Shown piece by piece: positions 7,910 through 58,393 of a stretch of 64,000 bases of DNA. The notes below the pieces were generated by a model. That model was given only the letters and a program-made list of their open reading frames with translations, ran no database searches and was not told the origin of the DNA. The translations under genes and the position numbers were made by a program. Positions within the stretch are counted from its first letter, which is position 1, and every line of letters begins with the position of its first letter. This DNA is from Gammaproteobacteria bacterium (GTDB lineage: Bacteria > Pseudomonadota > Gammaproteobacteria > Steroidobacterales > Steroidobacteraceae): contig RGUL01000002.1 of assembly GCA_010027845.1 (NCBI GenBank), positions 62,001 to 126,000 of the forward strand. Direction: 5' to 3'.

Positions 7910-8518
7910 TCAGCGCGCGCCGCGCAGTGCGCTGCGACACAACTCGAGATGAGCGTCGTCCAAGCGCCCGTCTTTGGCAACTTCGACGACCGTCTCGAGC
8001 ATGAGCGTCACGACTTCATGATCTTGTTTCGCTCGCGAGAGTTCGCGACGCAATTCGACGATCAGTTTGTCACGTGCATCGAGCTCGCGAATCAAAGGAT
8101 CCCAGTGCGGTGCTCGATGACGCTCGAGCAATGTTTCGACGACTTCGCCGTGACCGCTCAAATAATCGGGATTGAAATTACGCAAACCGAAATTTCGTAG
8201 CCCCGGAATTTCCTGCAGCGTGCGATCGGTGACGCGCTCGAAGCCCATGCTCCAATCTGAATATTGGCGAGACGTGACCGATTCGCGACGTACGATTTTG
8301 ACGTTCGTGTGGCGCGAATCGCGCTCGATCACCGCCATCAATCGATCGACCGCTGCCTCGTCGCCTTCGATCACTTGCAGGAACGTGCCGTTGCCGTACA
8401 GCAACATTCCCGTCAAGCCTTTGGCGGGGTTGTTACGATGGCACTGCGTGACCAAGGCGAGTAACGCATCGGCCGACAACACCGCGGACTCTTGGCTCAA
8501 ATAGGTGAGACGAATCAT
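7910..8518 (-). CDS. BLUF-domain blue-light photoreceptor (short type)
   Basis: The 202-residue product starts with a BLUF domain that binds FAD and senses blue light. The flavin-contacting residues are in place: Tyr6 in MIRLTYLSQ, Asn30 in CHRNNPAKGLTGMLL, Gln48 in GTFLQVIEG, and both Trp and Met in SDWSMGF. After about residue 135 there is a charged helical tail (RELDARDKLIVELRRELSRAK), likely a coiled coil, and no recognisable catalytic output domain. Short BLUF proteins like this act through protein partners. The chosen ATG gives a standard BLUF N-terminus. A longer frame exists upstream but adds non-family residues and collides with the divergent DUF2147 gene. Confidence 0.93.
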   Translation of the reverse strand: MIRLTYLSQESAVLSADALLALVTQCHRNNPAKGLTGMLLYGNGTFLQVIEGDEAAVDRLMAVIERDSRHTNVKIVRRESVTSRQYSDWSMGFERVTDRTLQEIPGLRNFGLRNFNPDYLSGHGEVVETLLERHRAPHWDPLIRELDARDKLIVELRRELSRAKQDHEVVTLMLETVVEVAKDGRLDDAHLELCRSALRGAR

Positions 8519-8599
8519 GGTTCGGAAGATACTCGTTTTTCGCTCTTCTGCGGTGAAATGTTGGTTGCAAGCATCACTTTTGCGGGCGATCATCGCTCA

Positions 8600-9056: not shown

Positions 9057-12000
9057 TCATACCGTGATCGCCAAACCGCGGTAGATACGCGCGCGGTACC
9101 GACTTTCCTGCGCTTCAACGATGGGTGCTGCCGCGAGCAACACGGCGTGCGCGAATCTTTGATATTCCTCGGCCTGCTCGGCCGCATCTCGCGGCTCTTC
9201 ACTGCGCATCCGCCGCGTTAGGTTGACCTGATTGACCGGTACGGCCGTGGGTAAGCGCTCGTTTTCCACGCCGAGCGTCGCCGTGAAGGCATGCAGCGTC
9301 GTTTTGACGAAGTTCGCCATCGCGAACTGTGCGAGCGTACCGCCGACCGGCACGTCCGGTGAGGTCAAGATCAATCGTGCACCTTTGAACAACGATACCT
9401 TACGTGCGACGCGGAAATGATGCGTGATGTTGGTTTCGATCAAAGCCGAAAACTCTGCAGCATCGAGATGATCTTTGCCCGCCACACCAAACAAAGCGCG
9501 CGGAATCGCCGCAAACGGCGTCGAGATCACCGCCGCAGGTGCACCGCTTGCTGCGAATGCCGCATCCATACCCGCCTCGAGCTCATCACCGACCGTGAGG
9601 TAGGACACGCGGTCGTGACCCAACGCTCGACCGAGAACTTGTTTGATGCTCTCACCCGCCGCAGCGGTGCGCGTCAACATGACGATGCTGCCGACGTGAC
9701 CTTCGGCGAGGAACAACTTGGCGACGGCCGCCAACGGCTCGCTCATGTGCTCGCCGATCAACCAAATATTTTCGCCCTCCATGCGGCGCACTCGCTCCGG
9801 CTTCGCGCGACCGAAGAGTTCGCGCTCGGTGATGGTTCGCTCTTGCTGTAAGCCGCCCGACGGCTCGAAAGTTTCACCGGAGATCGCCCGATCGGCCATG
9901 AAGAATACGGTCGCAAGCGCGACATCGGTCTCGGTCGGCATGCGATGTAAGTGCAGCATCCCGATCACACCTGATCGAATTTTCTCAGCCTCGATCTCGA
10001 TACGCGCCGGATCGATGAACGGCTCGGGTGGCACCGGCAGTTCTAGCACCCACTGCTCGGCGCGCTCCCGTACGCCGTCATCGGCGAGCAGGCAACCGTT
10101 ACGCAACCGCGCGATCAACCGCATTGCCATGGGTCGAGTCATCAAAAAGTGTAGCGACGAGTGCGTCGGCTCTTCGGTGCCGGTCAGTTCGCCGCGAAGT
10201 TTGCTGCACAAGTCGCGTAACGCAACCGGCACCTCGGCGGCATTCAACAGTCCGATATCGTTGTCGCGTAACACCGCGAGAATCGACTCGACCTGCACTC
10301 CTGCATCGATTGCCTTGAGAACCGCTCCGTGTAACTGATTCAAGCGCTTGTTTTCGAGAATTAACTTCGCGCGCCTATCGAACAAGCCCGCTTTGCCGTC
10401 TTTGCCTTTAAGGCGCTGGCCTTCGACCGGGCCCGGCGCGATCGCGTTGATCTGGATTTCCGGGCCGACGAAGCGCGCCATGTTCTCGACCAGTGCGCGT
10501 TGGCCAGCTTTCGACACCGCATAGTCGGAACGATTCGGATAGGGAACGGCGATGTATTTTTCCCCGCCGAAGTACGAACTGACGTTGAGGATGTATCCTG
10601 AGCCCTGCTCTTTCATGAGCGGCACGACTTTCTCGATCAAAGAATAGTTCGAGACGAGATTAGCCTGCAGGGTGTTCCGCCAATCTTCTGGCAATAGATC
10701 GACCGCCATTTGCTCCGCGCCCGCAACCCCGGCGTTATTGATCAGATAGTCGATTCGTCCGAACGCTTGCAGGGTCGCGGCCAATGATTTGGCGAGCGCA
10801 CCTTCGTCGGCGACGTCGATATCAGCGAGGATACGGACACGCTCGTGCGGACGGTTGTATCCGATCTCGCCGAGTTCTTTGACGATGCTGTCACGCAACT
10901 CGACGAGTTGGCTCTCACGGCGCGCCGTCAACATCACGCGCGCGCCGGAAATCGCGAGTAAGCGTCCGAGTTGGCCGCCGATACCGGCAGAACCGCCGGT
11001 TATCAACGCACATTTACCGAGATGCAGCCCCATCAGTGATTCGATCCAACCAAAATTCGGCCGAGTCGAACCGGTCGCATCGACGATCGCAGCGGGCATG
11101 TAGAGATTCACCTGCGGTACGCGACGTTGGGTAAACAGCAAACGCGCAGCCTGCGCGCCAGCGAACGTCAGTTCGTGCTCCTCGGAGTTCGACCAACGCA
11201 ATATTTGATTTGCCCACTCCAAGGCGGCACGATCACCGGCACGCACTTGCGTCTCGCTCTCGTCGCGCCAAACCCGAATCAGCTGCTCGATTGCGGCACG
11301 CAAAATATCGGCGTAAGTGTTACCCGCATCGTCGTGGCCGTTAGACATGAAGATGATGCGTGGACTCACGCCAGCCCGTGCGAGTCGACGCCACAATCGC
11401 GACAACTCACGCACGATGCCAATCGTGCCCGCGAGTTCGCCACGCAGGAATGCGTCGACATCGGCGTCGCTAGCTTCGGCGAGCGGCGCTTTGAATCGCC
11501 AATTACCAAATGCCGGCAGCACGATCGCACCATGTAATCCCTGCCCGGGCTCGACACTCGCAAGCGAGGCCGCCAAGGTATCGGGACGATTTCGATCGAA
11601 CAGCACCGGTGCGATGCGGCGATCGGCATCGCTCTTACGCAACGCGGCATGCGCGGCCTGCACCGCCTCCTCGCTGCCGAGGCCGAGCAACACCCGCGCT
11701 CCGCAGCCCGCCTGGATACGCGCAATCGCCAGGGCATCAGCGACTTGATCCCCCGCTGCCACCAGTACGGTCGATCCGGTGCCATCGACTGTCCGCAATT
11801 CCGGCCGCGACACCCAAGTCGAGCGTGATTCCTGCACGACTTGCATGCCGTTGGTGACTTCGAAATTCTGCGAGCTGAATGCCGACGATTCATCGCTGCC
11901 GAGGAAGACGATCGTATTGGCGACATCGTCGACGGTCGGCAAACTGTGACGCGCAGTGGTGTCTCCATCTGCACGCGCCAGAGCCATCGTTTGCGTGAAG

Positions 12001-12776
12001 TCGTTGGCGGTCGTGCCGTCGGCCACATTGCGCAAGCCGTCCATCGCTTTGAACACCGTGCGGATACGATCGCTCTCGATCGGACCCGGATAAACGGTAT
12101 TCACACGAATGCCACGCGCGCCGAGTTGCAGCGCGAGCTGGCGTGAAAAGGCATTCAGCGCGGACTTCGGTACGACGTAGGCGGCGCGACCGAAATATCG
12201 CGTGCGTGAGAAAATCGTCGATACGTTGATAACGGAAGCGCCGGTGGTGAGGTGCGGCGCAGCGGCTCGCACCATGTTCCAGCCCAATCCCAAAAGATTT
12301 CCCGCGGCATCGGCCACGGTCTCGGTATCCGTGGACCCCGCCGCGCGCAGCGCATCGAGTTCCTCACGGGATAACGGTAATCTTTCGATTGGCGCCTTGG
12401 GCCCGGCGGAGCCCGCGTTGTTGACGAGTACGTCGAGCCGACCGAAATGCCGGACGGCGGTATCAACGGCGAACCGCGCCTGACCGGCATCCGAAACGTC
12501 GAACGCCAGCACTAGCGCGTGTTCTGCCGACGCGCCGGTCGCCGACAATAATTTTTTTCGCGTCGCTTCCAGTTTTGCTTTGTTGCGACCGACCATCACG
12601 ACCTTCGCGCCTTCCTCGAGGTAGCGACGGACGATCACTTCGCCGATGTTGCCAGCGGCACCCGAGACGAGCGCGACCTTGCCGATCAAGCGCCCGGGCC
12701 GCACGACGCGCGCGCTTGCTGTTGATCGTTTCGCCTTGCGTACCGTCTTGGTTTTCTTTTTGGCTTTGGCGATCAT
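9057..12776 (-). CDS. mcr: bifunctional malonyl-CoA reductase (3-hydroxypropionate forming)
   Basis: This 1239-residue protein is two fused short-chain dehydrogenase units, the architecture of the malonyl-CoA reductase of Chloroflexus and some proteobacteria. The C-terminal unit reduces malonyl-CoA to malonate semialdehyde and the N-terminal unit reduces that to 3-hydroxypropionate, using two NADPH in total. In the N-terminal half the cofactor loop is VSGAAGNIG (residue 38 on), with Ser186 in INVSTIFS and the Tyr200/Lys204 pair in YVVPKSA. A degenerate SDR-like stretch follows (about 330-580). The C-terminal half has ITGGSAGIGG near residue 592, Ser733/734 in NVSSYFGG and Tyr752/Lys756 in YAVSKAG. 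The start ATG overlaps the pcs stop (ATGA), so the two genes form one coupled operon. Odd point: the first 28 residues are very Lys/Arg-rich and precede the first beta-strand. Confidence 0.95.
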   Translation of the reverse strand: MIAKAKKKTKTVRKAKRSTASARVVRPGRLIGKVALVSGAAGNIGEVIVRRYLEEGAKVVMVGRNKAKLEATRKKLLSATGASAEHALVLAFDVSDAGQARFAVDTAVRHFGRLDVLVNNAGSAGPKAPIERLPLSREELDALRAAGSTDTETVADAAGNLLGLGWNMVRAAAPHLTTGASVINVSTIFSRTRYFGRAAYVVPKSALNAFSRQLALQLGARGIRVNTVYPGPIESDRIRTVFKAMDGLRNVADGTTANDFTQTMALARADGDTTARHSLPTVDDVANTIVFLGSDESSAFSSQNFEVTNGMQVVQESRSTWVSRPELRTVDGTGSTVLVAAGDQVADALAIARIQAGCGARVLLGLGSEEAVQAAHAALRKSDADRRIAPVLFDRNRPDTLAASLASVEPGQGLHGAIVLPAFGNWRFKAPLAEASDADVDAFLRGELAGTIGIVRELSRLWRRLARAGVSPRIIFMSNGHDDAGNTYADILRAAIEQLIRVWRDESETQVRAGDRAALEWANQILRWSNSEEHELTFAGAQAARLLFTQRRVPQVNLYMPAAIVDATGSTRPNFGWIESLMGLHLGKCALITGGSAGIGGQLGRLLAISGARVMLTARRESQLVELRDSIVKELGEIGYNRPHERVRILADIDVADEGALAKSLAATLQAFGRIDYLINNAGVAGAEQMAVDLLPEDWRNTLQANLVSNYSLIEKVVPLMKEQGSGYILNVSSYFGGEKYIAVPYPNRSDYAVSKAGQRALVENMARFVGPEIQINAIAPGPVEGQRLKGKDGKAGLFDRRAKLILENKRLNQLHGAVLKAIDAGVQVESILAVLRDNDIGLLNAAEVPVALRDLCSKLRGELTGTEEPTHSSLHFLMTRPMAMRLIARLRNGCLLADDGVRERAEQWVLELPVPPEPFIDPARIEIEAEKIRSGVIGMLHLHRMPTETDVALATVFFMADRAISGETFEPSGGLQQERTITERELFGRAKPERVRRMEGENIWLIGEHMSEPLAAVAKLFLAEGHVGSIVMLTRTAAAGESIKQVLGRALGHDRVSYLTVGDELEAGMDAAFAASGAPAAVISTPFAAIPRALFGVAGKDHLDAAEFSALIETNITHHFRVARKVSLFKGARLILTSPDVPVGGTLAQFAMANFVKTTLHAFTATLGVENERLPTAVPVNQVNLTRRMRSEEPRDAAEQAEEYQRFAHAVLLAAAPIVEAQESRYRARIYRGLAITV

Positions 12777-15700
12777 CGAGCTGCCCCCCACTCCTGAAAG
12801 AGCTCGTCGCGCGATCGCAGACCACTGCGAGGTAGCGCGTGATTGACAACGTAATTCGCTCCGGCGTGTGTGTTGTCCCACATCGCTTGATGCGCGGCGG
12901 GCAGATCGCCCCACGGGACGATGGTCGGCGCGCTCACCTCGAGTTGTCCTGCTGCGATCATGTCGTTCATCCGCGCGACTTCGAACGCATTGCAAAGATG
13001 GGTGCCTGCGATGTTGGCAGTCGGCATCAATATTTTTCGCTGCCGCATCCACACTTGCGGTGCATAGAAAGTGTAGCGGCTGCCCTGCATCGATTCGCAG
13101 TAGACGACTCGACCGGTGAACGGTTTGACGAGCGACGTCGAAGCCGCGAGTGCATCGTGTCCTGCGCGCTCTATGATCAGATCCGGATAGCCGCGGGGAT
13201 TGTCCGCCGATCGCAACGAGCGACCGATCGCCCCACCGAACGGTTTCATGGTGCGCTCTTGGAATTGACGGACGGATTCTTTGAAGCGTACGGTGTCGCG
13301 CTTCGCGTCGGGCAACGGCGGTAAAGCGCGCGGCCAATCGAAGTCCTTACCCTCCTTCCGTCGAATTTCCTCGATCGAAACCACACCTCGTACCGAGTCG
13401 CCATAGCCGAGCGATTGCACGAATTCACGTTGAGCATCCGTCATCGTCGCGACGACGAGTCGTCCACCGGCTTTCCGTACAGCCTCGATCGCCTCGAGAC
13501 CCACCGGGTCTAGCAGATGATCGGCATGCTCCTCGGTCGCGGCAACGCCGTAATAAAGCAGCACGGCTTCGCCCGCTCGCAAGCGCGCGCGTCGCAGCAT
13601 TTCTTCGGGGCTGGTCGCGCCCGATTTGCCGACGAATGAAAACCAGTAGCCACTCGTCGCGCCGTAGAACGTCAGCGTGCCGTGCTCGGCCAGCATTTGA
13701 AACGAGCGCGGAAACGCCTCTTGACCTGCGTGCGATACGACGTAATCGGCGAGTCGCCCACCGCTTTGACGACGCATCTCTTCGAGGATCGGCTCGCCCG
13801 CGCGCTCCCAACGCGCAATGGCTTCGGGCTCTGACGGCACGACCGTATACGCCTCGGCCCAGCGCGTGTCGCGACGATTGATGGCACCTGCAGCGCCCTG
13901 CGTGCGCACGAAATCCGCGCGCTCGGCACTCGAGACCAATCCGACGCTCGTCAATCCATTACGCGCCGCACTCTTCAACGCCTCGAAACCGGTGCCGGTA
14001 GCGGCACCCTCGACGAACAAAGTTTTTCCCGGCTCGATCTGCAGCGTCGTGAAAAGCGCGCGTACGACCGTGCCGAGATTGAGCACGTAAGAGCCTGCCG
14101 CTTCGAGCGTGAGATCCGGCGGCAAGGCGTGTAACTGTGGTCCCTGCACTAACAAAAATTGTTGGTGACTACCGGTGTCGGTTTCATAGCCCTGTATCGA
14201 AAAGCCGGCGTACATCGGATCGCGTGCGGCCAGTGGCGACAATAGATCGCTTTGACCAGAATAGACTGTCACGAGGTCGCCGACTTTGAGTCGTCCTTCA
14301 CGTTTGACTTCGCTGCCGACCGCCACGATCAGCGCGACACCGCCCGAGCCCGTGACTTGATAGTCTAGATCGTGATTGTCGAATGGCGAGACCGGAATAC
14401 CGGTGATCGCCCAAATATCGTTGAAGTTCACCTCGGAAGCGAGCACGTAGACGAGTGCCTCGTTCGGTCCCGGACGCGGTACCGGGACGACGATTTGTCG
14501 CTCGGCGTCGCGTGGCAAACCGTGCGCCGGCGCACCGGTGTGCAAATCTTTGACCACCGCATGTCCGTATTGCCAGTTCGGCAACGGGGTGAGCCCGGGA
14601 AAGAACGGCGCACCGACCGGCAGTAGTTCACCGCGCGCAACGAGCGCCGGGAGCATCGCTGCCCCCGGCGTCGTGTCGCGGCGGGTCGGCAGGGGCGCGC
14701 TCTGCTTATCGAAGAACGCGCGAATGCCAGCCTTGCCCCCCTCGGAATCCACGATCGCTTCGGCGAACAATTGTGCTTCGCGGGCGAGGCCTGCGGCGAC
14801 GCCCACAGTCCATCCCGTGCTCACCGCATCGAGAATGCGCTCGGCCGTCTTGCCGCGACCGACCGCTTTCGCCTGCGCCAATAAACGCAAAACTTCGGCA
14901 TCGCGTAAGGCCGTTTCGAGATCATCCTGACCGGCCGCTTGCCATGCAGCGCTTGCCGTCCGTCGCGCCACGAATTCGCGAGCGATCAAATTTTCGCCCG
15001 TCGATGCCGCGACGTACTCGGTCGCCAGTCGCGTCGCGAGCGTCAACACGTCCTCTGCATCGTTCGCGACCGCATGCACCAAACCGTCCGCCTGCATTTC
15101 GGCAGCATCGAACGTTCGACCGCCCATCACGATTTCGAATGTTCGCACCAACGGAGTCGGGTGCTTCGCCAGCTCGAGCAACCGAGGCAAACGTTGCGTG
15201 CCACCGTAACCGGGTAGCAAGTTCAAGCGAACCTCCGGTTGGCCGAACGTTGCGAGCGGTTCGGCGAGTCGCACGTGACAGGCCATCGCGAATTCCATAC
15301 CGCCACCGAGTGCGACGCCGTTGATAGCGGCGATCACCGGCTTGTCCATCGCCTCGATTTTGCGAAACGCGAGATGCGCATTGTTCGGTAAGGGCAGCGC
15401 TTCTTCGAGCGTTTGCACGTCCTCGTACAACTGGCGAATATCAGCGCCGGCGACGAATGCCGATGTGCCTTGACCCGTGAAAATCACGACTTTGACATCG
15501 GTGCGTCGTGCCACGTGATCGATGACGATGTTGAGCTCGTCGAGCGCCCGCTCGTTGAGCGCATTGACCGGCGGATTGTTAATAGTGACGACCGCAAGCC
15601 TCACGGCGGTGGCGAGTGCGTGGTAGTGAATGCGGAAATATCGAAAATCTTCGAATAGCTGCTGTTCATCGGCGACGCGTTGCCGCTCTTGCCAATCGCG

Positions 15701-18250
15701 AATGGCGACGCGTAACTCACCGATCGATTCGGGATTGCGCAGCGTCGACACGTCACCCACGTCGTGCCCTTCCACGAGCGCTCGCACCATGCGACGCATG
15801 TATTTGCCGCTGCGGGTCTCGGGAAATTGCGAAACCTCGACGAAATCTTCGGGGATCGCGACCTGGCCTTTTTCTTGCCGCACCGTCTCGATGAGTCGAC
15901 GACGATCTTCGGCCGTCAACTTTCGACCGGGCGCCGGTTTCACGAACGCGAGCGGCGTCAACCCTTTTTGGGCGTGCGGCGCTCCGACCACGATCACGTT
16001 GCCGACCGGCGAATCCGGGTTCACCTGTTTGTCGCGCAGAATCGCGCCTTCGATCTCTTCGGTGCCGAGTCGATGGCCCGAGACGTTGATGACGTCGTCG
16101 GAGCGCCCGTGTAGAGAAAAGCCGCCGTCCGAATATTTGACGGCGAAATCACCCTGCGTATACGCGAGTCGATCACGCCAGCGAACCCAATACGTCTTGC
16201 GATAACGATCGAAATCGCCGCGCCAATCACGTACGACACATCGACCCTCGACTTTGAAGTTGCGTTCGTCGCCCCAGATGGTGCGACAAAGATAGGGGTA
16301 CGGGGCGGCGATCACGATCTCGCCTTTCTCGCCGTCCTCCGCGACCCGAACGGCCACCGAGCCGTTCGCGTCTGGCTCGCTATCGGCGAGCCAAACATCG
16401 CCCATCACCCAAGGCAAAGGATAGGTATGCGCATCGGCGCGCAATGGGAAATCACTGTTCCCGTACAGATGGGTCCAAACGATGCCGCCGTGCTCGGTCG
16501 CCCAATAAGAGTTCGTATACCACGGCGTGACGAGATCCATACCGAACTGCTGTACGACCGGTGACGTCGGTTCGGCACAGAACGTCGCGACGCGCAAACT
16601 GTCACGCGAATACGCACGCACGTCCTCGACGTTCTGCGGATCGCTCATCACCGTCTTTAAAAAGGTGACGCCCGCTTTGAATATGTTGACCTTCAACCGC
16701 TCGATGATGCTCGCGAATCGTCCGGCGCTCGGGAAGACCGGCGCGCCCTCGGCGATCACACTGGTCACACGCGACGTCAACGCACCAGAAATCATGTAGC
16801 TCTGACCGGTGATCCAACCGGGATCGGCGACCACGTACATCACCTCTCCAGGTCGTGCATCGAACGCGACGCGAAGCGTGTGCGCGACGCCACTGACGTA
16901 GCCACCGTGCACGTGCACCACACCCTTTGGCTTGCCCGTCGAGCCCGAGGTGTAGATGAAGAACAGCGGAAATTCCGCGTCTAGCGGCACCGGCGGCACG
17001 ACGGTCCAAATCACGCTGACGAATGCCCGATCATCGAGCGCGAGTAGTTGAGCCTCGTCCTCGACTCGATGACCTGCAGTACGCGCCGCCGCCAATATTT
17101 TATTTAGCGCGTCGTTGGTCAACTCGTGCGCCCAACGATCGCGCTCGGGACGCCACAATAAGTCGGCTTGTGCGGCATGCCGCACGACGATCACCGTATC
17201 GACACGCGGCGGCGTCGATACCAATGCACTGGCGATCGCAGTTCGGATACGACTCGCCTCGCTCGGCGAGATACCGTCGATACGCTCAAGCGCGCGACCG
17301 ATACCACGCATGATATCCGAGCGTTCCAACGTTATTTCATTGGCAACGACTTGTCCGGCACCGTCAAGGATCGCCTCCGAGTGTTCGCCCTTTAGACCGA
17401 GTGAAGCAAGCGCCCGTGTCACCGCAGCGATTGCGGTTTCGGCGGGTACGTACCCGTCGAGTGCGGGATCGGTATAGGCTTCTTTGAAGGCGACGATTTG
17501 TGCATTGCGATACCCGCCGTCGGCCGTGATCACGATGCGTGCGCCAGCGTTATGAATCCGATCCGATAAGGTCTTGTCGCTAAACCCACCGAACACCGGC
17601 GTATACACGATGCCGATTCGTTTACAGGCTTCGGTCCAATAGATCTGCTCGGGGATGTTCGGCATATTGATCGCGATACGATCGCCGAGCTTTAAACCCA
17701 GAGTTTGCAAGGCCAGTGCGCAGCGCGCGACCTCAAGCAACAGACGTTTGCGACTGACGCTATACGAAACGACCGGCGCACCGCGTCCGCCGTCCTGCGA
17801 TTGATCCCAACGATCGCCTTCGAACCACAACGCCGCTTCGTCGCCGTGACCCGCGAGTACGTGTCGATCGACTTCGTTGAAACACGCGTTGGTGAGCGCG
17901 CCATCGAACCAGCGATAGAACGGTGCTGTCGAATCGTCGAACGCGGTGTGCCAAGGCCGATAATCGTCGGCTAGCGTCGGCTCGACGATCGAACCGGTCA
18001 CCGCGTCATAGCCGCGCCACCGATTATCGTCGTCGCGACGAATCCAAGCGCCATGCGCACCGAGCGTCGGCTCGAACCAATGAATTTCGCGACTCGCGAT
18101 GTCGCCGTGGAAACGGCCGGGATCGACACGGCAAGCGTCGCGTGCCGCCTGCCATGCCGCACGGTCTTTGATGCGATTAACGAGGGCCGGCGGCGGCGCA
18201 ATAGCCGCAGGTGCCGGGGCCCCATCCTTGGACCCGTTCAAACTCGACAT
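12773..18250 (-). CDS. pcs: propionyl-CoA synthase (trifunctional ACS-ECH-ECR fusion)
   Basis: The 1825-residue protein matches the length and domain order of Chloroflexus propionyl-CoA synthase (about 1820 aa), which converts 3-hydroxypropionate, CoA, ATP and NADPH to propionyl-CoA inside one reaction chamber. Residues 1-860 are an acyl-CoA synthetase: ATP loop YTSGSTGKPKG at 433-443, YWATEHGGI at 582, GRSDDVINVSGHRLG at 715 and the A10 lysine in ETRSGKYMRR at 816. Residues about 870-1190 are an enoyl-CoA hydratase with GGGMEFAMAC and FGQPEVRLNLLPGYGGTQR, giving the two catalytic glutamates (about 986 and 1006). Residues about 1220-1825 are a medium-chain reductase with EVNFNDIWAITGIPVS and the nucleotide loop FVEGAATGTG near 1412. 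No catalytic element appears lost. It is first in the operon and overlaps mcr by four bases. Confidence 0.96.
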   Translation of the reverse strand: MSSLNGSKDGAPAPAAIAPPPALVNRIKDRAAWQAARDACRVDPGRFHGDIASREIHWFEPTLGAHGAWIRRDDDNRWRGYDAVTGSIVEPTLADDYRPWHTAFDDSTAPFYRWFDGALTNACFNEVDRHVLAGHGDEAALWFEGDRWDQSQDGGRGAPVVSYSVSRKRLLLEVARCALALQTLGLKLGDRIAINMPNIPEQIYWTEACKRIGIVYTPVFGGFSDKTLSDRIHNAGARIVITADGGYRNAQIVAFKEAYTDPALDGYVPAETAIAAVTRALASLGLKGEHSEAILDGAGQVVANEITLERSDIMRGIGRALERIDGISPSEASRIRTAIASALVSTPPRVDTVIVVRHAAQADLLWRPERDRWAHELTNDALNKILAAARTAGHRVEDEAQLLALDDRAFVSVIWTVVPPVPLDAEFPLFFIYTSGSTGKPKGVVHVHGGYVSGVAHTLRVAFDARPGEVMYVVADPGWITGQSYMISGALTSRVTSVIAEGAPVFPSAGRFASIIERLKVNIFKAGVTFLKTVMSDPQNVEDVRAYSRDSLRVATFCAEPTSPVVQQFGMDLVTPWYTNSYWATEHGGIVWTHLYGNSDFPLRADAHTYPLPWVMGDVWLADSEPDANGSVAVRVAEDGEKGEIVIAAPYPYLCRTIWGDERNFKVEGRCVVRDWRGDFDRYRKTYWVRWRDRLAYTQGDFAVKYSDGGFSLHGRSDDVINVSGHRLGTEEIEGAILRDKQVNPDSPVGNVIVVGAPHAQKGLTPLAFVKPAPGRKLTAEDRRRLIETVRQEKGQVAIPEDFVEVSQFPETRSGKYMRRMVRALVEGHDVGDVSTLRNPESIGELRVAIRDWQERQRVADEQQLFEDFRYFRIHYHALATAVRLAVVTINNPPVNALNERALDELNIVIDHVARRTDVKVVIFTGQGTSAFVAGADIRQLYEDVQTLEEALPLPNNAHLAFRKIEAMDKPVIAAINGVALGGGMEFAMACHVRLAEPLATFGQPEVRLNLLPGYGGTQRLPRLLELAKHPTPLVRTFEIVMGGRTFDAAEMQADGLVHAVANDAEDVLTLATRLATEYVAASTGENLIAREFVARRTASAAWQAAGQDDLETALRDAEVLRLLAQAKAVGRGKTAERILDAVSTGWTVGVAAGLAREAQLFAEAIVDSEGGKAGIRAFFDKQSAPLPTRRDTTPGAAMLPALVARGELLPVGAPFFPGLTPLPNWQYGHAVVKDLHTGAPAHGLPRDAERQIVVPVPRPGPNEALVYVLASEVNFNDIWAITGIPVSPFDNHDLDYQVTGSGGVALIVAVGSEVKREGRLKVGDLVTVYSGQSDLLSPLAARDPMYAGFSIQGYETDTGSHQQFLLVQGPQLHALPPDLTLEAAGSYVLNLGTVVRALFTTLQIEPGKTLFVEGAATGTGFEALKSAARNGLTSVGLVSSAERADFVRTQGAAGAINRRDTRWAEAYTVVPSEPEAIARWERAGEPILEEMRRQSGGRLADYVVSHAGQEAFPRSFQMLAEHGTLTFYGATSGYWFSFVGKSGATSPEEMLRRARLRAGEAVLLYYGVAATEEHADHLLDPVGLEAIEAVRKAGGRLVVATMTDAQREFVQSLGYGDSVRGVVSIEEIRRKEGKDFDWPRALPPLPDAKRDTVRFKESVRQFQERTMKPFGGAIGRSLRSADNPRGYPDLIIERAGHDALAASTSLVKPFTGRVVYCESMQGSRYTFYAPQVWMRQRKILMPTANIAGTHLCNAFEVARMNDMIAAGQLEVSAPTIVPWGDLPAAHQAMWDNTHAGANYVVNHALPRSGLRSRDELFQEWGAAR

Positions 18251-22920: not shown

Positions 22921-23931
22921 TTAGTTCCAAAACCGTTCGAGCGTCTGATGGTACAGCGGGATGCCGATCAAGATGTTAAACGGAAAGGTCATCGCCAGCG
23001 ACATCGTGAAGTACAAGCTCGGGTTCGCCTCGGGAATCGCGTAGCGCACGACCGCCGGCACCACGATGTAGGACGCTGACGCGGCAAGTACGGTCAGCAA
23101 GAAAGCATCGCCGAGCGACAAGCCGAACCATTTGGCGAGCACCGCGGCAGCGGTAGCGTTGAAGAGCGGCATCACAATGCTGAACGTGCCGAGGAACAAG
23201 CTGCTATCGCGCAGATCTTTGAGTCGGGTCGCGACCATCAAGCCCATGTCGAGCAAGAAGAACGCGAGTATCCCGTTCTGCAGATCGGTGAACGGCAACA
23301 TCATTTTTTTGCCGGCCGCCCCAGTGAGGAAACCGATCAATACGCCACCGAGCAGCAGCAGATGCGCCCCGTCCGTAAACGCCTCGTGCAGGATGCTGCG
23401 CAAAGTGATCGGCGCACCACCAGGTTTGCCCCCGATGGTCGGCGTCGCCGCGGCGGCACCGATCGATGCTCGCGCGCGGACCAAATTCGCGAGCAGCACC
23501 GCCATGATGATGGCCGGCGACTCCATCAACACGAGCGCGACTGCCATATAACCGCCCGCGCCGAGATTTTGCTGCTCTGCGTAGCCGGCTGCGGTGATGA
23601 AGGTGACGGCACTCACCGACCCATAAGTCGCAGCGATCGCCGCCGCGTCGAATGGACTCAGTTTGCGTCGCAGCACGAGAAACGACCAGGCGGGCACCGC
23701 AAGCGCAAGTAGCGCGGCGGCGAGTAACGCCCAACCCATTTCGGCGGTGAAGCCGTTCGCGGCCAAATTGACGCCGCCTTTGAAGCCGACGACCAGCAAC
23801 AGGTAGAGCGAACAGAATTTCGCGATCGTTTCCGGAATTTTCAGATTGGAACGGATGGAGCCCGCGAAGATGCCGAAGAAGAACAGCAAGATAGCGGGAT
23901 TTGCCAGACTGGAAAATAAGTTCATGTTCAT
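22921..23931 (-). CDS. sbtA: SbtA-family sodium-dependent bicarbonate transporter
   Basis: The 336-residue membrane protein belongs to the SbtA family (formerly DUF897), which in cyanobacteria imports bicarbonate with sodium. It has about ten hydrophobic segments. The family N-terminus reads NPAILLFFFGIFAGSIRSNL followed by IPETIAKFCSLYLLLVVGFK. A second half includes LTVLAASASYIVVPAVVRYA and FTMSLAMTFPFNILIGIPLY. There is a soluble loop near residues 155-180. The PII-like partner SbtB is not encoded next to it. Bicarbonate specificity is known for cyanobacterial members and is inferred here. The gene heads a four-gene minus-strand run and lies about 4.7 kb from the pcs start. Confidence 0.85.
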   Translation of the reverse strand: MNMNLFSSLANPAILLFFFGIFAGSIRSNLKIPETIAKFCSLYLLLVVGFKGGVNLAANGFTAEMGWALLAAALLALAVPAWSFLVLRRKLSPFDAAAIAATYGSVSAVTFITAAGYAEQQNLGAGGYMAVALVLMESPAIIMAVLLANLVRARASIGAAAATPTIGGKPGGAPITLRSILHEAFTDGAHLLLLGGVLIGFLTGAAGKKMMLPFTDLQNGILAFFLLDMGLMVATRLKDLRDSSLFLGTFSIVMPLFNATAAAVLAKWFGLSLGDAFLLTVLAASASYIVVPAVVRYAIPEANPSLYFTMSLAMTFPFNILIGIPLYHQTLERFWN

Positions 23932-50676: not shown

Positions 50677-52821
<2,145 letters not shown>

Positions 52822-52871
52822 GCGTGGATTACACCAGAGTTGTACGCAGGTTCGATATAGTTCGCCCCCTC

Positions 52872-55800
52872 ATGGAAGAGAAACTCAGCGGCACGATCGT
52901 CGTTCGCGGCGCGCGCCAGAACAAGGCGAGTTGGTGGTCGTCACCGGCGTTTCGGGCTCCGGTAAGTCGTCGCTGGTGTTCGACACGCTCTACGCGGAAG
53001 GACAACGGCGCTACGTCGAGACGTTCTCGCCTTATGCGCGGCAGTTCCTCGATCGCATGGACAAGCCCGCCGTCGATCGCATCGAGGGCATTCCGCCGGC
53101 GATCGCCATCGACCAAACGAATCCCGTCCGTACCTCGCGCTCGACCGTCGGCACGATGACCGAGCTCAACGATCACCTGAAATTATTATTCGCTCGTGCC
53201 GGTCATTTGCATTGCCGTCGCTGTGGCGAGATCGTACGCCGCGATTCTGCCGAATCGATCTACGCCGCACTCGAGGCGCACAGTCGCGCGGACGGTTCAC
53301 CGCGCCTGTTGATCTGCTTCACCGTGCCGGTGCCGAAGAACTTCAAAGAAACCGAGGTGCTCGAGCTGCTCGGTAAGCAAGGCTATACGCGCATTCGGGG
53401 TCGGCGCAAAGGCGAACTCGAAGTCGTGCAAGATCGCATACGCTTGCCGCAAACCGATCGTGCTCGCGTACTCGAAGCGATCGAGGCGGCGCTGCGCACC
53501 GGGCGTGGACGGATTCGTGTACACGCCTTGCGCGACAACGAAGCTGCTCGCGACCCGTCACGCGTCGATACGGCCGAAGCCGAATCTAGTTGGCATTTTT
53601 CCGACACGTTGCATTGCGCCGCTTGTGACATCGCTTACCGCGAGCCGACACCCAGCGCCTTCTCGTTCAATTCACCTGCCGGCGCTTGTGAGGCGTGTCG
53701 CGGCTTCGGTCGCATCATCGGGGTCGACTACGGTCTCGTCATTCCGGACGAGAGCAAAACTCTGCGCGAGGGTGCGGTTCGACCCTGGCAGACCGAGGCG
53801 TATCGCGAACACCAGCACGACATGGAGAGACTGGCGCGCAAGCGTGGCATCCCGCTCGATGTTCCGTGGCGCGAACTCACCACTGCACAGCGATCATGGG
53901 TGATCGACGGTGAGGGTGAGTGGTCCAAAACGGTTTGGTGGGGCGCGAAGCGTTTCTTCGCGTGGCTCGAAACCAAAGCTTATAAAATGCACATTCGCGT
54001 GTTGCTGTCGAAGTATCGCGCGTATACCCCTTGCGAGCGCTGCGACGGCGCTCGCCTCGCGCCGCAATCGCTGCTTTGGCGAGTCGGTGACGCCGATCTG
54101 GCTGCGCGTGTACTCGGCGAGCGGAAACGCTTTCGACCTCGCGATGTCGAGTGGAGCGAGCAGCAATCGGCTGCACTACCCGGCCTTTGTATTCACGACT
54201 TAATGTTGCTGCCGATCGAGCGTAGTCGCGAATTCTTTGCCGAACTGCGCCTGACGGGCGCACTCGACGACGCCACGGAATTGTTGCTCGCAGAGATCCG
54301 TAGTCGTTACGGCTATCTGTGCGATGTCGGGCTCGGCTACCTCACGCTCGATCGCCAATCGCGTACGTTGTCTGGCGGCGAAGTGCAGCGCATCAATCTC
54401 ACGACGGCGCTCGGCACCTCGCTAGTGAACACCTTATTCGTGCTTGACGAGCCGTCGATCGGCTTGCATCCGCGCGATATGCAACGCGTGATCGACGTCA
54501 TGCAGCGGCTACGCAGCGCCGGAAACTCGTTATTGGTGGTCGAGCACGACCCGCAGATCATGCAACGCGCAGATCGCTTACTCGACATGGGTCCAGGTGC
54601 GGGCGAGCGTGGCGGCTCGATCGTCAGCTACGGCACGCCGGCGGCGGTGACTGCCGACCCGCACTCGGTGACGGGCGCTTATCTCACCGGCCGCAAGCGC
54701 GTCGAACTGCCGCACACACGGCGTCGAACGGCACAACGCGAGCGCGGCGCACTTGAGTTACTCGGTGTCACGCAACACAACTTGCGCTCGATCGACGTGC
54801 GGTTGCCGCTCGGCAAGCTGGTGTGCGTCACAGGCGTATCGGGTTCGGGAAAGTCGACCTTGATACAAGATGTGCTCTATCCGGCACTTTTGAAGCGCAA
54901 GGGTAAACCGACCGAGTCGGCCGGTGAACACCGCGCGCTGCGCGGTGACCACCTCATCGACGAAGTCGTGTTCGTCGATCAAACGCCCATCGGTCGCACC
55001 ACGCGCTCAAACCCGGCAAGTTACGTTGGTGCCTTCGACGTCATTCGCGAGCGGTTCGCGCGAATCGGTATGGCGCGCGAACGCGGCTATACGGCGGGAA
55101 CGTTCAGCTTCAACTCCGGCACCGGTCGCTGCCCGATCTGCAGCGGTAACGGCTTCGAACACGTCGAGATGCAATTTTTGTCTGATGTCTATCTACGCTG
55201 TGGTGATTGCAACGGCACACGTTATCGCAGCGAAACACTGGAAATTCTTCATCCAGGCCCCGGCGGTCGCTCGGCTAACATCGCCGACGTATTACAGATG
55301 ACAGTCACGGAAGCACTCGAGTTCTTCGCCGACGTGCCCGATCTTGCCGCGCGACTCGCGCCGCTCGCCGACGTAGGCCTCGACTATTTGCGTCTCGGCC
55401 AACCGGTGCCCACGCTCTCGGGCGGCGAGGCGCAACGACTGAAATTAGCCGGACATCTCGCCGAATCGGCGACCGTTTCCCGACTCGGCAAGTTATTTTT
55501 GTTCGACGAACCGACGACGGGTTTACATTTCGAGGACATCGGTAAGTTACTCGCCTCGTTCCGTAAATTACTGGACGCGGGTCACTCGCTGCTCGTCATC
55601 GAGCACAACCTCGATGTGATCCGTGCGGCAGAATGGATCGTCGATCTCGGTCCCGAAGGTGGCGACCACGGTGGCGAACTCGTAGTTTGCGGTACACCGG
55701 AAGACGTGATGCAGCACCGCACGTCACACACCGGCAAAGCACTGCGCGAATATCGGCTCGAACCTGCCGCAACGATGGTCGCCGAGCCCACGCATCGCGC

Positions 55801-58393
55801 CGCGACGGCACGCAGCGCGGCGATCGTGGTGCGTAACGCGCGCGAGCACAACCTACACAATATCGACGTCGACATCCCGCGTAATGCGTTCACCGTGGTC
55901 ACCGGCGTGTCGGGCTCCGGCAAATCGACTTTGGCGTTCGACATCATCTTCAACGAGGGGCAACGACGATATTTAGAATCTTTGAACGCCTACGCGCGGC
56001 AATTTGTGCAGCCAGCTGCACGCCCGGAAGTCGATGCGATCCATGGCATTCCACCGACCGTCGCCATCGAACAGCGCACGAGTCGCGGCGGACGTAAGAG
56101 CACGGTCGCAACACTCACCGAGATCTATCACTTTCTGCGCTTGCTGTACGTCAAGCTCGGCACGCAACACTGCCCAGATTGTGACGTTCCGATCGAGCCA
56201 CAATCTGCGGATGCAATCGCGGCTCGAATCATCAAAGATTTTTCCGGTCGTACGATCGATCTGCTCGCACCGCTCGTAATAGCACGCAAAGGTCTCTACA
56301 CGGATCTCGCAAAATGGGCGGGCGCCAAAGGCTATCGCGAGCTCCGCGTCGATGGGCAAAGAATCAACGTCAAGCCTTGGCCACGACTCGATCGGTTTAA
56401 AGAACACGACATCGAGCTACCGGTCGCACGGCTCGGTATATCGGCGCGCGGCGAAGCGGATTTGCGCAGCAAGCTCAGCGAGGCGTTGCAGTACGGCAAA
56501 GGGGTGGTGCAAGTATTGCCGCAAGGCTCGAAGCACGCGATCGTGTTTTCGACCAAGCGCGCATGCCCAGGTTGCGGAGCGAGCTTCGCCGAGCTCGACC
56601 CGCGATTGTTTTCGTTCAATTCCAAGCAGGGTTGGTGCACCGACTGCTTCGGCACGGGCGTACAGTTGCCGGACTTCGACGCGGAGCAGAGCGGCGAAGA
56701 GGCGACTTGGAACGAATGGCACCCGGGCGAGGTTGCTGCTTGCGAAGGCTGTCGCGGCGAACGCCTCAATCCGATCGCGCGCGCAGTACGCTTTCGCGAT
56801 CGCTCACTCGGCGCACTGACCTGCCAAACGGTCACCGACACACGTAAACAATTCACTAAACTCAAGCTATCGACTCGCGAGCGAGCGATCGCGCGCGATT
56901 TATTGGCGGAAATCGACTCGCGTCTTTCGTTTCTCGAACGCGTCGGTTTGGGTTATTTGACCTTGGATCGCTCGGCGCCGAGTCTCTCGGGTGGCGAAGC
57001 GCAGCGCATCCGGCTCGCCGCACAACTCGGCTCGAATCTGCGCGGCGTTTGTTACGTTTTGGATGAACCGACCATCGGTCTGCATCCGCGCGATAACCGT
57101 ATCTTGCTCGATGCGCTCGGCGAACTCGCCGCACACGAAAATACTTTGCTGGTGGTCGAGCATGACGAGGACACCATCCGACGCGCCGATCACGTGATCG
57201 ATCTCGGCCCGGGCGCTGGCGTGCGCGGCGGTCGTATCGTCGGTCGCGGTAAGGTCGACGAACTCGTCGCTAACCCCGATTCGGTCACGGGGCGGTTCTT
57301 ACGCGAACCGCTGCGTCATCCGTCAGAACCACATCGGCCCGTCGCCGCGCGCACCGAATCTTTGCTGATCGAGCATGCGAAGCTGCACAACCTGAACGGG
57401 CTCGACGTGCGTATTCCGCTCGGTCGATTGGTGGCGGTCACCGGCGTGTCGGGCTCGGGCAAGTCGACGCTGGCGCGCGACGTGCTGTTCGCGAGCGCGA
57501 GTGCGATGGTCGGCAAGGCCGGCAAGTCGGCGGCCGCGACCGGGTGCCGCACCATCCGCGGAATCGCTGCCGTCGATCGCGTCTTAGAAGTCGACCAGAC
57601 ACCGATCGGCAAGACGCCCCGCTCCTGCCCAGCGACGTACGTCGGTATTTGGGACGACATCCGAAAAATTTACTCCGGCACGTCCGAAGCCCGGCTGCGC
57701 GGCTACGGCCCAGGGCGATTCTCGTTCAACACGTCGGGCGGTCGCTGCGACGCCTGCGAGGGCCAAGGCGTACAGACGATCGAGATGAGCTTCCTTCCCG
57801 ACGTGAAGGTCGGCTGCGACGTTTGCGGTGGACGGCGCTTCAATGCCGAAACTTTGGCCGTCACCTGGCGTGATAAGAGTATCGGCGATGTGCTCGCGAT
57901 GAGCATCGAAGATGCGGCGGAATTCTTTGCATCGCAACCCACACTCAAGCACGTGCTGACGTTGCTGTGCGAAGTCGGACTCGGCTACCTCACCTTGGGC
58001 CAGCAGAGTCCAACGCTCTCCGGTGGCGAAGCTCAGCGCATCAAACTCGTCACCGAGCTTGCTAAAGTGCGGGTCGACTTACGGGCGCCGCTGCGCAGCA
58101 AACCCAAACATACCCTCTACGTCCTCGATGAGCCGACCGTCGGTCTGCACATGGCGGACGTCGAGAAATTGATCGCCGTGCTACATCGACTCGTCGATGC
58201 AGGTAACACGGTGGTGGTGGTCGAACACGATCTCGACGTCATTGCCGAGGCGGACTGGGTCATCGACATGGGTCCGGAGGCCGGCGCGGCGGGCGGCAAA
58301 CTGGTCGCCGAAGGCACACCTGCGGCCATCGTCAAAAAATATATGCGATCGCACACCGGTCGTGCCTTGCGCGAGTTGCTATCGCGCCGCTAG
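52872..58393 (+). CDS. uvrA: tandem UvrA-like ATPase (four ABC modules), frameshift near the N-terminus
   Basis: About 1840 codons encode two complete UvrA units in one chain. Four Walker A loops GVSGSGKS(S/T) occur at about 52.95, 54.84, 55.91 and 57.45 kb, and four signature motifs LSGGE(V/A)QR at about 54.37, 55.42, 56.99 and 58.02 kb. UvrA zinc-finger cysteine pairs are present (LHCRRCG, CPICSGNGF, CPGCGASF, CDACEGQG). The natural start is the ATG at 52872 (MEEKLSGTIVVRGARQN), but the frame breaks at 52924/52925. UvrA normally continues NLKN..D.IP before GELVVVTGVSGSGKS, and here those roughly ten residues are absent and the frame changes. A deletion of about 31 nt would explain it. The rest of the frame is intact, so this is a recent mutation, a sequence error or a gene that starts internally. 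Confidence 0.88.

Follow-up and report, generated by a model that had tools for sequence, protein, structure and literature searches.

A probable acetyl-CoA to propionyl-CoA half of the 3-hydroxypropionate bicycle in a phototroph of the Steroidobacteraceae, and a patchy second half in its genus

The 3-hydroxypropionate bicycle of Chloroflexus aurantiacus is the described system against which the pcs-mcr gene pair analysed here is best read: the genome that carries the pair, a metagenome-assembled genome (MAG) of the Steroidobacteraceae, shares its first-half enzymes and succinyl-CoA branch but yields neither Mcl nor Mct, whereas sister species have Mcl, Mct and Mch. In PMC9802188 (2022), complete bicycles are claimed for photosynthetic MAGs of the Burkholderiales (families Ga0077523 and Burkholderiaceae) and for MAGs of the Gemmatimonadales. 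As in the sister genomes here, those photosynthetic gammaproteobacterial MAGs hold the second half in one operon, but, unlike in that account, the second half is here patchy within one genus. PMC11089705 describes bloom-associated phototrophs with five of six marker genes, propionyl-CoA carboxylase being the missing one, and PMC10976687 the freshwater phototroph genus UBA964 (Steroidobacterales). We found no description of the present genus in the literature searched, and claim no priority.

Among known structures, 6eqo, which we take to be the propionyl-CoA synthase of Erythrobacter sp. NAP1, has the same three fused modules as pcs and aligns with it over the full length, a likeness read from sequence only, although its host belongs to another class. 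The malonyl-CoA reductases (MCR) of Roseiflexus, Chloroflexus and Porphyrobacter have a four-SDR layout and catalytic residues in common with mcr; the structures used are 8hi4 from Roseiflexus, 8hjw from Chloroflexus, and 6k8s (C half) and 6k8v (N half) from Porphyrobacter. By score, the protein encoded by mcr lies closer to the proteobacterial MCR halves, at 748 and 548 bits, than to those of Roseiflexus (714 and 476) or to 8aet/8aew (705 and 418). An earlier reading of the DNA from its letters (the sequence-only reading) had named Erythrobacter-like and OM60-clade strains among other proteobacterial carriers. Such a pair does occur in other proteobacteria, as the PDB entries and PMC9802188 show.

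The window, that is, the whole stretch of 64,000 nucleotides analysed, comes from contig C2 of the MAG, which totals 2.6 Mb (182 contigs, 90.95% complete, 2.93% contamination). The pair lies on its minus strand at 9057-18250, with both genes intact:

12773..18250, minus strand: pcs, propionyl-CoA synthase of 1825 aa with three modules in one chain (matches 6eqo over the full length)
15803..17962, minus strand: pcs module 1, acyl-CoA synthetase (residues 97-816; ACAS_N, AMP-binding, AMP-binding_C)
14996..15598, minus strand: pcs module 2, enoyl-CoA hydratase (residues 885-1085; ECH_1, 120 bits)
12860..14470, minus strand: pcs module 3, medium-chain-type enoyl-CoA reductase (residues 1261-1797; ADH_N, ADH_zinc_N)
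9057..12776, minus strand: mcr, bifunctional malonyl-CoA reductase (1239 aa; its start codon shares bases with the pcs stop)
11844..12662, minus strand: mcr N half, first SDR domain (residues 39-311; T187, Y200, K204); malonate semialdehyde to 3-hydroxypropionate (role after PMC10470521)
10416..11015, minus strand: mcr C half, third SDR domain (residues 588-787; S734, Y752, K756); malonyl-CoA to malonate semialdehyde (role likewise after PMC10470521)

The start codon of pcs is the ATG at 18250 and its last stop base 12773, and mcr runs from the ATG at 12776 to a last stop base at 9057, so that the genes overlap in an ATGA at 12776-12773; the sequence-only reading had described just this adjacency and overlap. 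In the list of open reading frames mcr is 1426 aa long, from an upstream TTG; the 1239-aa start is that of the sequence-only reading, and the longer form finds no backing in the ten other aligned mcr proteins alone, with matches starting at about residue 5-28. The identification, in that reading, of an ACS-ECH-ECR fusion beside a double SDR is likewise supported by Pfam domains and by near end-to-end PDB matches: residues 26-1824 of pcs align with 6eqo (2445 bits), and mcr matches 8hi4 over residues 29-1239 (1199 bits) and 8hjw over 27-1239 (1136 bits). Fusion of the three modules in one chain of about 1800 aa is the layout of propionyl-CoA synthase, and the bifunctional MCR has four SDR-type domains in a row, the first and third of which bear the catalytic residues; Pfam reports two adh_short copies in mcr, and the remaining two of the four domains follow from the full-length structure match. 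The best 25 NCBIfam matches include no model for PCS or MCR as such, and module 3 of pcs gives a partial match to the crotonyl-CoA carboxylase/reductase model TIGR01751, under its cut-off. Promoter-like sites do not rise above background (two found, against 3.1 in shuffles). Judged from its sequence, the pair is not a product of chance.

The motifs YTSGSTGKPKG, SGKYMRR, GGGMEFAMACH and GQPEVRLNLLPGYGGTQ are present in pcs, all within stretches alignable to 6eqo; the choice of the pcs residues regarded as catalytic is our assumption. For MCR, PMC10470521 reports 14 residues as needed in the Roseiflexus enzyme. The N half of mcr keeps T187, Y194, R197, Y200 and K204, and the C half S734, Y746, R749, Y752, K756, R788, L798, R802 and R1174 (numbers mapped through motif spacing, R1174 through its distance to the C end). 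None of the 14 is lost, and all are invariant in an alignment of 11 sequences, in keeping with the earlier statement that the catalytic residues are intact.

The sequence-only reading had proposed searching the genome for partner enzymes, and the results for this genome agree with its expectation. Contig C117 carries, in one row, genes for methylmalonyl-CoA mutase (with a B12 domain), MeaB, and PccB-type and PccA-type proteins. The mutase exceeds its NCBIfam cut-off; the PccB-type protein lies under the cut-off of its best NCBIfam model, a methylmalonyl-CoA decarboxylase subunit. Two further carboxyltransferase matches fall on opposite profile halves, as AccA and AccD would give. Genes of the pufL and pufM type lie on contig C1, with pufM 69-75% identical to several lineages, and no RuBisCO large subunit was found in any of the 40 genomes searched, which included this one and 23 other members of the genus. 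No match to the trifunctional malyl-CoA lyase (Mcl) of the Chloroflexus type appears at E ≤ 1e-60 in the assembly, which is 91% complete, and the sole HpcH/HpaI lyase (PF03328) is CitE-like. Of five class III CoA transferases, the best reaches about 34% identity to the sister mesaconyl-CoA C1:C4 transferase (Mct) over part of its length (26-28% over the full length), and no Mct orthologue was found among those compared. Two enzymes of a complete bicycle, Mcl and Mct, are thus not found in the assembly. Contig C94 holds a separate cluster (L041 3018-11709) of three class III CoA transferases, the CitE-like lyase and a MaoC hydratase, with, by eye, a GntR-type regulator and an acyl-CoA dehydrogenase-like protein. 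A candidate complete bicycle built from the C94 lyase and the three CoA transferases was rejected by PDB and BLAST comparison.

We consider it probable that the two-gene operon encodes the part of the 3-hydroxypropionate bicycle that leads from acetyl-CoA to propionyl-CoA and, with its partner operon, works anaplerotically or mixotrophically, with no net autotrophy. What is observed is the two genes side by side with their residues intact, the photosystem genes and the partner operon; activity, direction of flow and use are inferred. Acetyl-CoA carboxylase would convert acetyl-CoA to malonyl-CoA; the C half of MCR would reduce this with NADPH to malonate semialdehyde, and the N half, with a second NADPH, to 3-hydroxypropionate. 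PCS would then activate 3-hydroxypropionate with ATP and CoA, dehydrate it to acrylyl-CoA and reduce that with NADPH to propionyl-CoA, to which the carboxylase/mutase operon would add a second bicarbonate, giving succinyl-CoA. By the protein families involved, the net conversion would be of acetyl-CoA, two bicarbonates and three NADPH to succinyl-CoA, and the cell would turn acetyl units and bicarbonate into C4 compounds at the expense of light-driven ATP and NADPH. The route may be one of several ways of assimilating acetyl units.

Across this genome and its relatives, mcr occurs in 26 of 148 genomes, among them 21 of the 24 genus members, and in 4 of 48 genera. The photosystem, as Photo_RC, occurs in 37 genomes, 20 of them in the genus, and in 10 genera. 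Both are present in 24 genomes, that is, in 24 of the 26 bearing mcr; the two without a photosystem match (G005 and G011) are each 77% complete. Conversely, 13 of the 37 photosystem genomes have no mcr; one of these, G006 (93% complete), belongs to the genus. All four mcr genera fall among the ten phototrophic ones, and the association has a Fisher p of 3e-16 by genome, where shared descent makes the genomes non-independent, and of 0.001 by genus, both uncorrected for descent. Of 369 genomes sampled evenly across the class, two gave an mcr match at E ≤ 1e-120: this one and G180 (46% identity). A contig scan with patterns general to SDR proteins, and so no gauge of rarity, gave mcr at two of the 80 loci listed (L042 and L043), and no plasmid matched mcr at 1e-80.

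In 19 of the 20 relatives' loci pcs stands immediately upstream of mcr on the same strand, with about 170 bases or less between aligned ends; in G012 it lies 2.7 kb upstream, and in some MAGs (G009, G012, G008 and G046) the genes are in pieces. The MCR tree places the window sequence within the genus, next to G013, G003 and G002. A UbiA-type gene lies near mcr in 15 of the 20 relatives' loci (annotated in two), a neighbourhood that the window does not have, and none of 16 flank genes of the window was found in the relatives' pcs-mcr stretches, which extend about 4 to 9 kb upstream of pcs (three without the pcs start). With the tree position inside the genus and a different neighbourhood, the operon therefore seems, on sequence grounds, to have been inherited but moved. 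In Aerophototrophica crusticola an accA-type carboxyltransferase gene follows mcr (L043 10002-10934), which fits a supply of malonyl-CoA.

Elsewhere in the window, a gene for an Sbt_1-type sodium-dependent bicarbonate transporter (22924-23931) lies on the same strand, 4.7 kb upstream of pcs. We considered a bicarbonate-uptake module of Sbt_1 and pcs-mcr, and left Sbt_1 out of it because the gene was not found in the pcs-mcr stretches of the 20 relatives, over the 4 to 9 kb or so upstream of pcs that these cover. A BLUF blue-light sensor gene (7913-8593) is directly downstream of mcr, with an ammonium transporter further on, and a single frame of 1963 aa with two UvrA interaction domains (52502-58393) resembles a tandem UvrA fusion.

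Two findings go beyond the sequence-only reading: the host is a phototroph with no RuBisCO match, and the second half of the bicycle is present in sister species. A protein search with the G003 lyase matched four of the 148 genomes (G003, G011, G013 and G021), all of the same genus, each with smt-type genes, mct, mcl and mch in one operon. One Mcl, one Mct and one Mch were compared with the PDB: the lyase matches Chloroflexus Mcl 4l7z (1e-195), the protein preceding it Mct 8apq (7e-189; 665 bits against an NCBIfam cut-off of 725), and the protein following it, in the G013 copy, Mch 4e3e (1e-162). One or two CoA transferases precede mct, mcl and mch, and are named smt by position and class. The full-autotrophy claim of the sequence-only reading, which was negative, stands for this MAG, in which neither Mcl nor Mct was found; with the second half in sister species, it may therefore not hold genus-wide.

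In G003, the closest of the four carriers, the operon lies at L161 6462-11099. Its smt gene is a hybrid of two paralogues (smt1/smt2) that switches near residue 150, and its mch has an in-frame stop at codon 235; by sequence this second half looks damaged, and either feature could be an assembly error. Pfam finds no mesaconyl-C4-CoA hydratase (Meh) among six ORFs examined on the contig. On the MCR tree the four carriers are scattered, requiring at least four changes, and cluster no more than shuffled labels do. G011 and G021 are 77% identical in MCR but 87, 97 and 92% in Mct, Mcl and Mch; all three G011 proteins are nearer G021 than G003, whereas G011 MCR is nearer G003. Because of these identities and of the G+C content of the G011 operon (0.67, against 0.62 in its own flank; 0.71 for the G021 contig), the comparison suggests that the second-half operon has been exchanged between species.

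The four MAGs may be contaminated, a possibility we take seriously, since no other MAGs of the genus are as fragmented as G021, G011 and G013. In favour of true membership, the composition of the contigs tracks that of each host, G003 and G013 share the downstream flank of the operon at 74%, and the G003 copy sits on a 32-kb contig. A rival explanation is that the present genome has a complete bicycle, with the second half missing merely from a 91%-complete assembly. Its neighbours G003 and G013 on the MCR tree do carry the operon, the assembly is in 182 pieces, and one CoA transferase gene on contig C173 is cut by the contig end. That gene is about 31-33% identical to the sister smt-type genes, and one on C151 38-39%, so neither is an edge of the second-half operon. 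The genome yields no mcl-type match at E ≤ 1e-60, its one PF03328 match being CitE-like, and mcl is missing from 11 of the 12 genus members of at least about 93-94% completeness (G001, G004, G007, G009, G010, G014, G015, G018 and G020, with G006 and G023 at 93%), G003 being the exception. We regard this explanation as quite unlikely.

A second half made of non-orthologous enzymes in the C94 cluster appears highly improbable. The cluster has the right enzyme classes, and the best PDB match of its MaoC protein is a beta-methylmalyl-CoA dehydratase, but that protein is half as long as the sister Mch and 33-38% identical to it; the lyase is nearer the CitE type (1sgj, 1e-42) than Chloroflexus Mcl (5e-15), the CoA transferase compared matches Mct weakly (E 1e-14), and lyases of like score occur in G006 and G017, both without mcr. 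The cluster better suits breakdown of C5 dicarboxylates, which is perhaps its role. It is rather unlikely, too, that the pcs-mcr pair is mainly a minor side route, giving propionyl-CoA for odd-chain lipids or copolymers, or salvaging 3-hydroxypropionate. Some haloarchaea feed copolymers through a PCS route. Haloarchaeal megaplasmids carry PCS at about 54% identity (five of seven records cover 80% or more of the query), while mcr gave no match there at 1e-80, so that other uses are open to PCS; at L200 and L201 it lies near methylmalonyl-CoA mutase genes, and at one of them near alcohol and aldehyde dehydrogenases, suiting 3-hydroxypropionate use. In the present operon, by contrast, the reductive partner mcr is included, and the pair follows the photosystem, which is unexpected of a minor storage route.

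We thus favour the anaplerotic or mixotrophic half-bicycle, which would explain bicarbonate uptake by RuBisCO-less phototrophs growing on acetyl units. The pcs-mcr pair itself belongs to a known kind; the informative part is the pattern at the level of the genus. As a tentative reading, somewhat short of an even chance, the bicycle of this genus is modular: pcs-mcr and the succinyl-CoA branch would form an inherited core, and the glyoxylate half (smt-type genes, mct, mcl and mch) a cassette gained, exchanged and lost, which the window's species lacks or has lost. If so, close relatives would differ in their capacity for autotrophic carbon fixation. If the genus pattern holds, it would offer a natural comparison of half-cycle mixotrophs with possible full-cycle autotrophs, in which the stepwise assembly or dismantling of a complex autotrophic cycle could be asked about.
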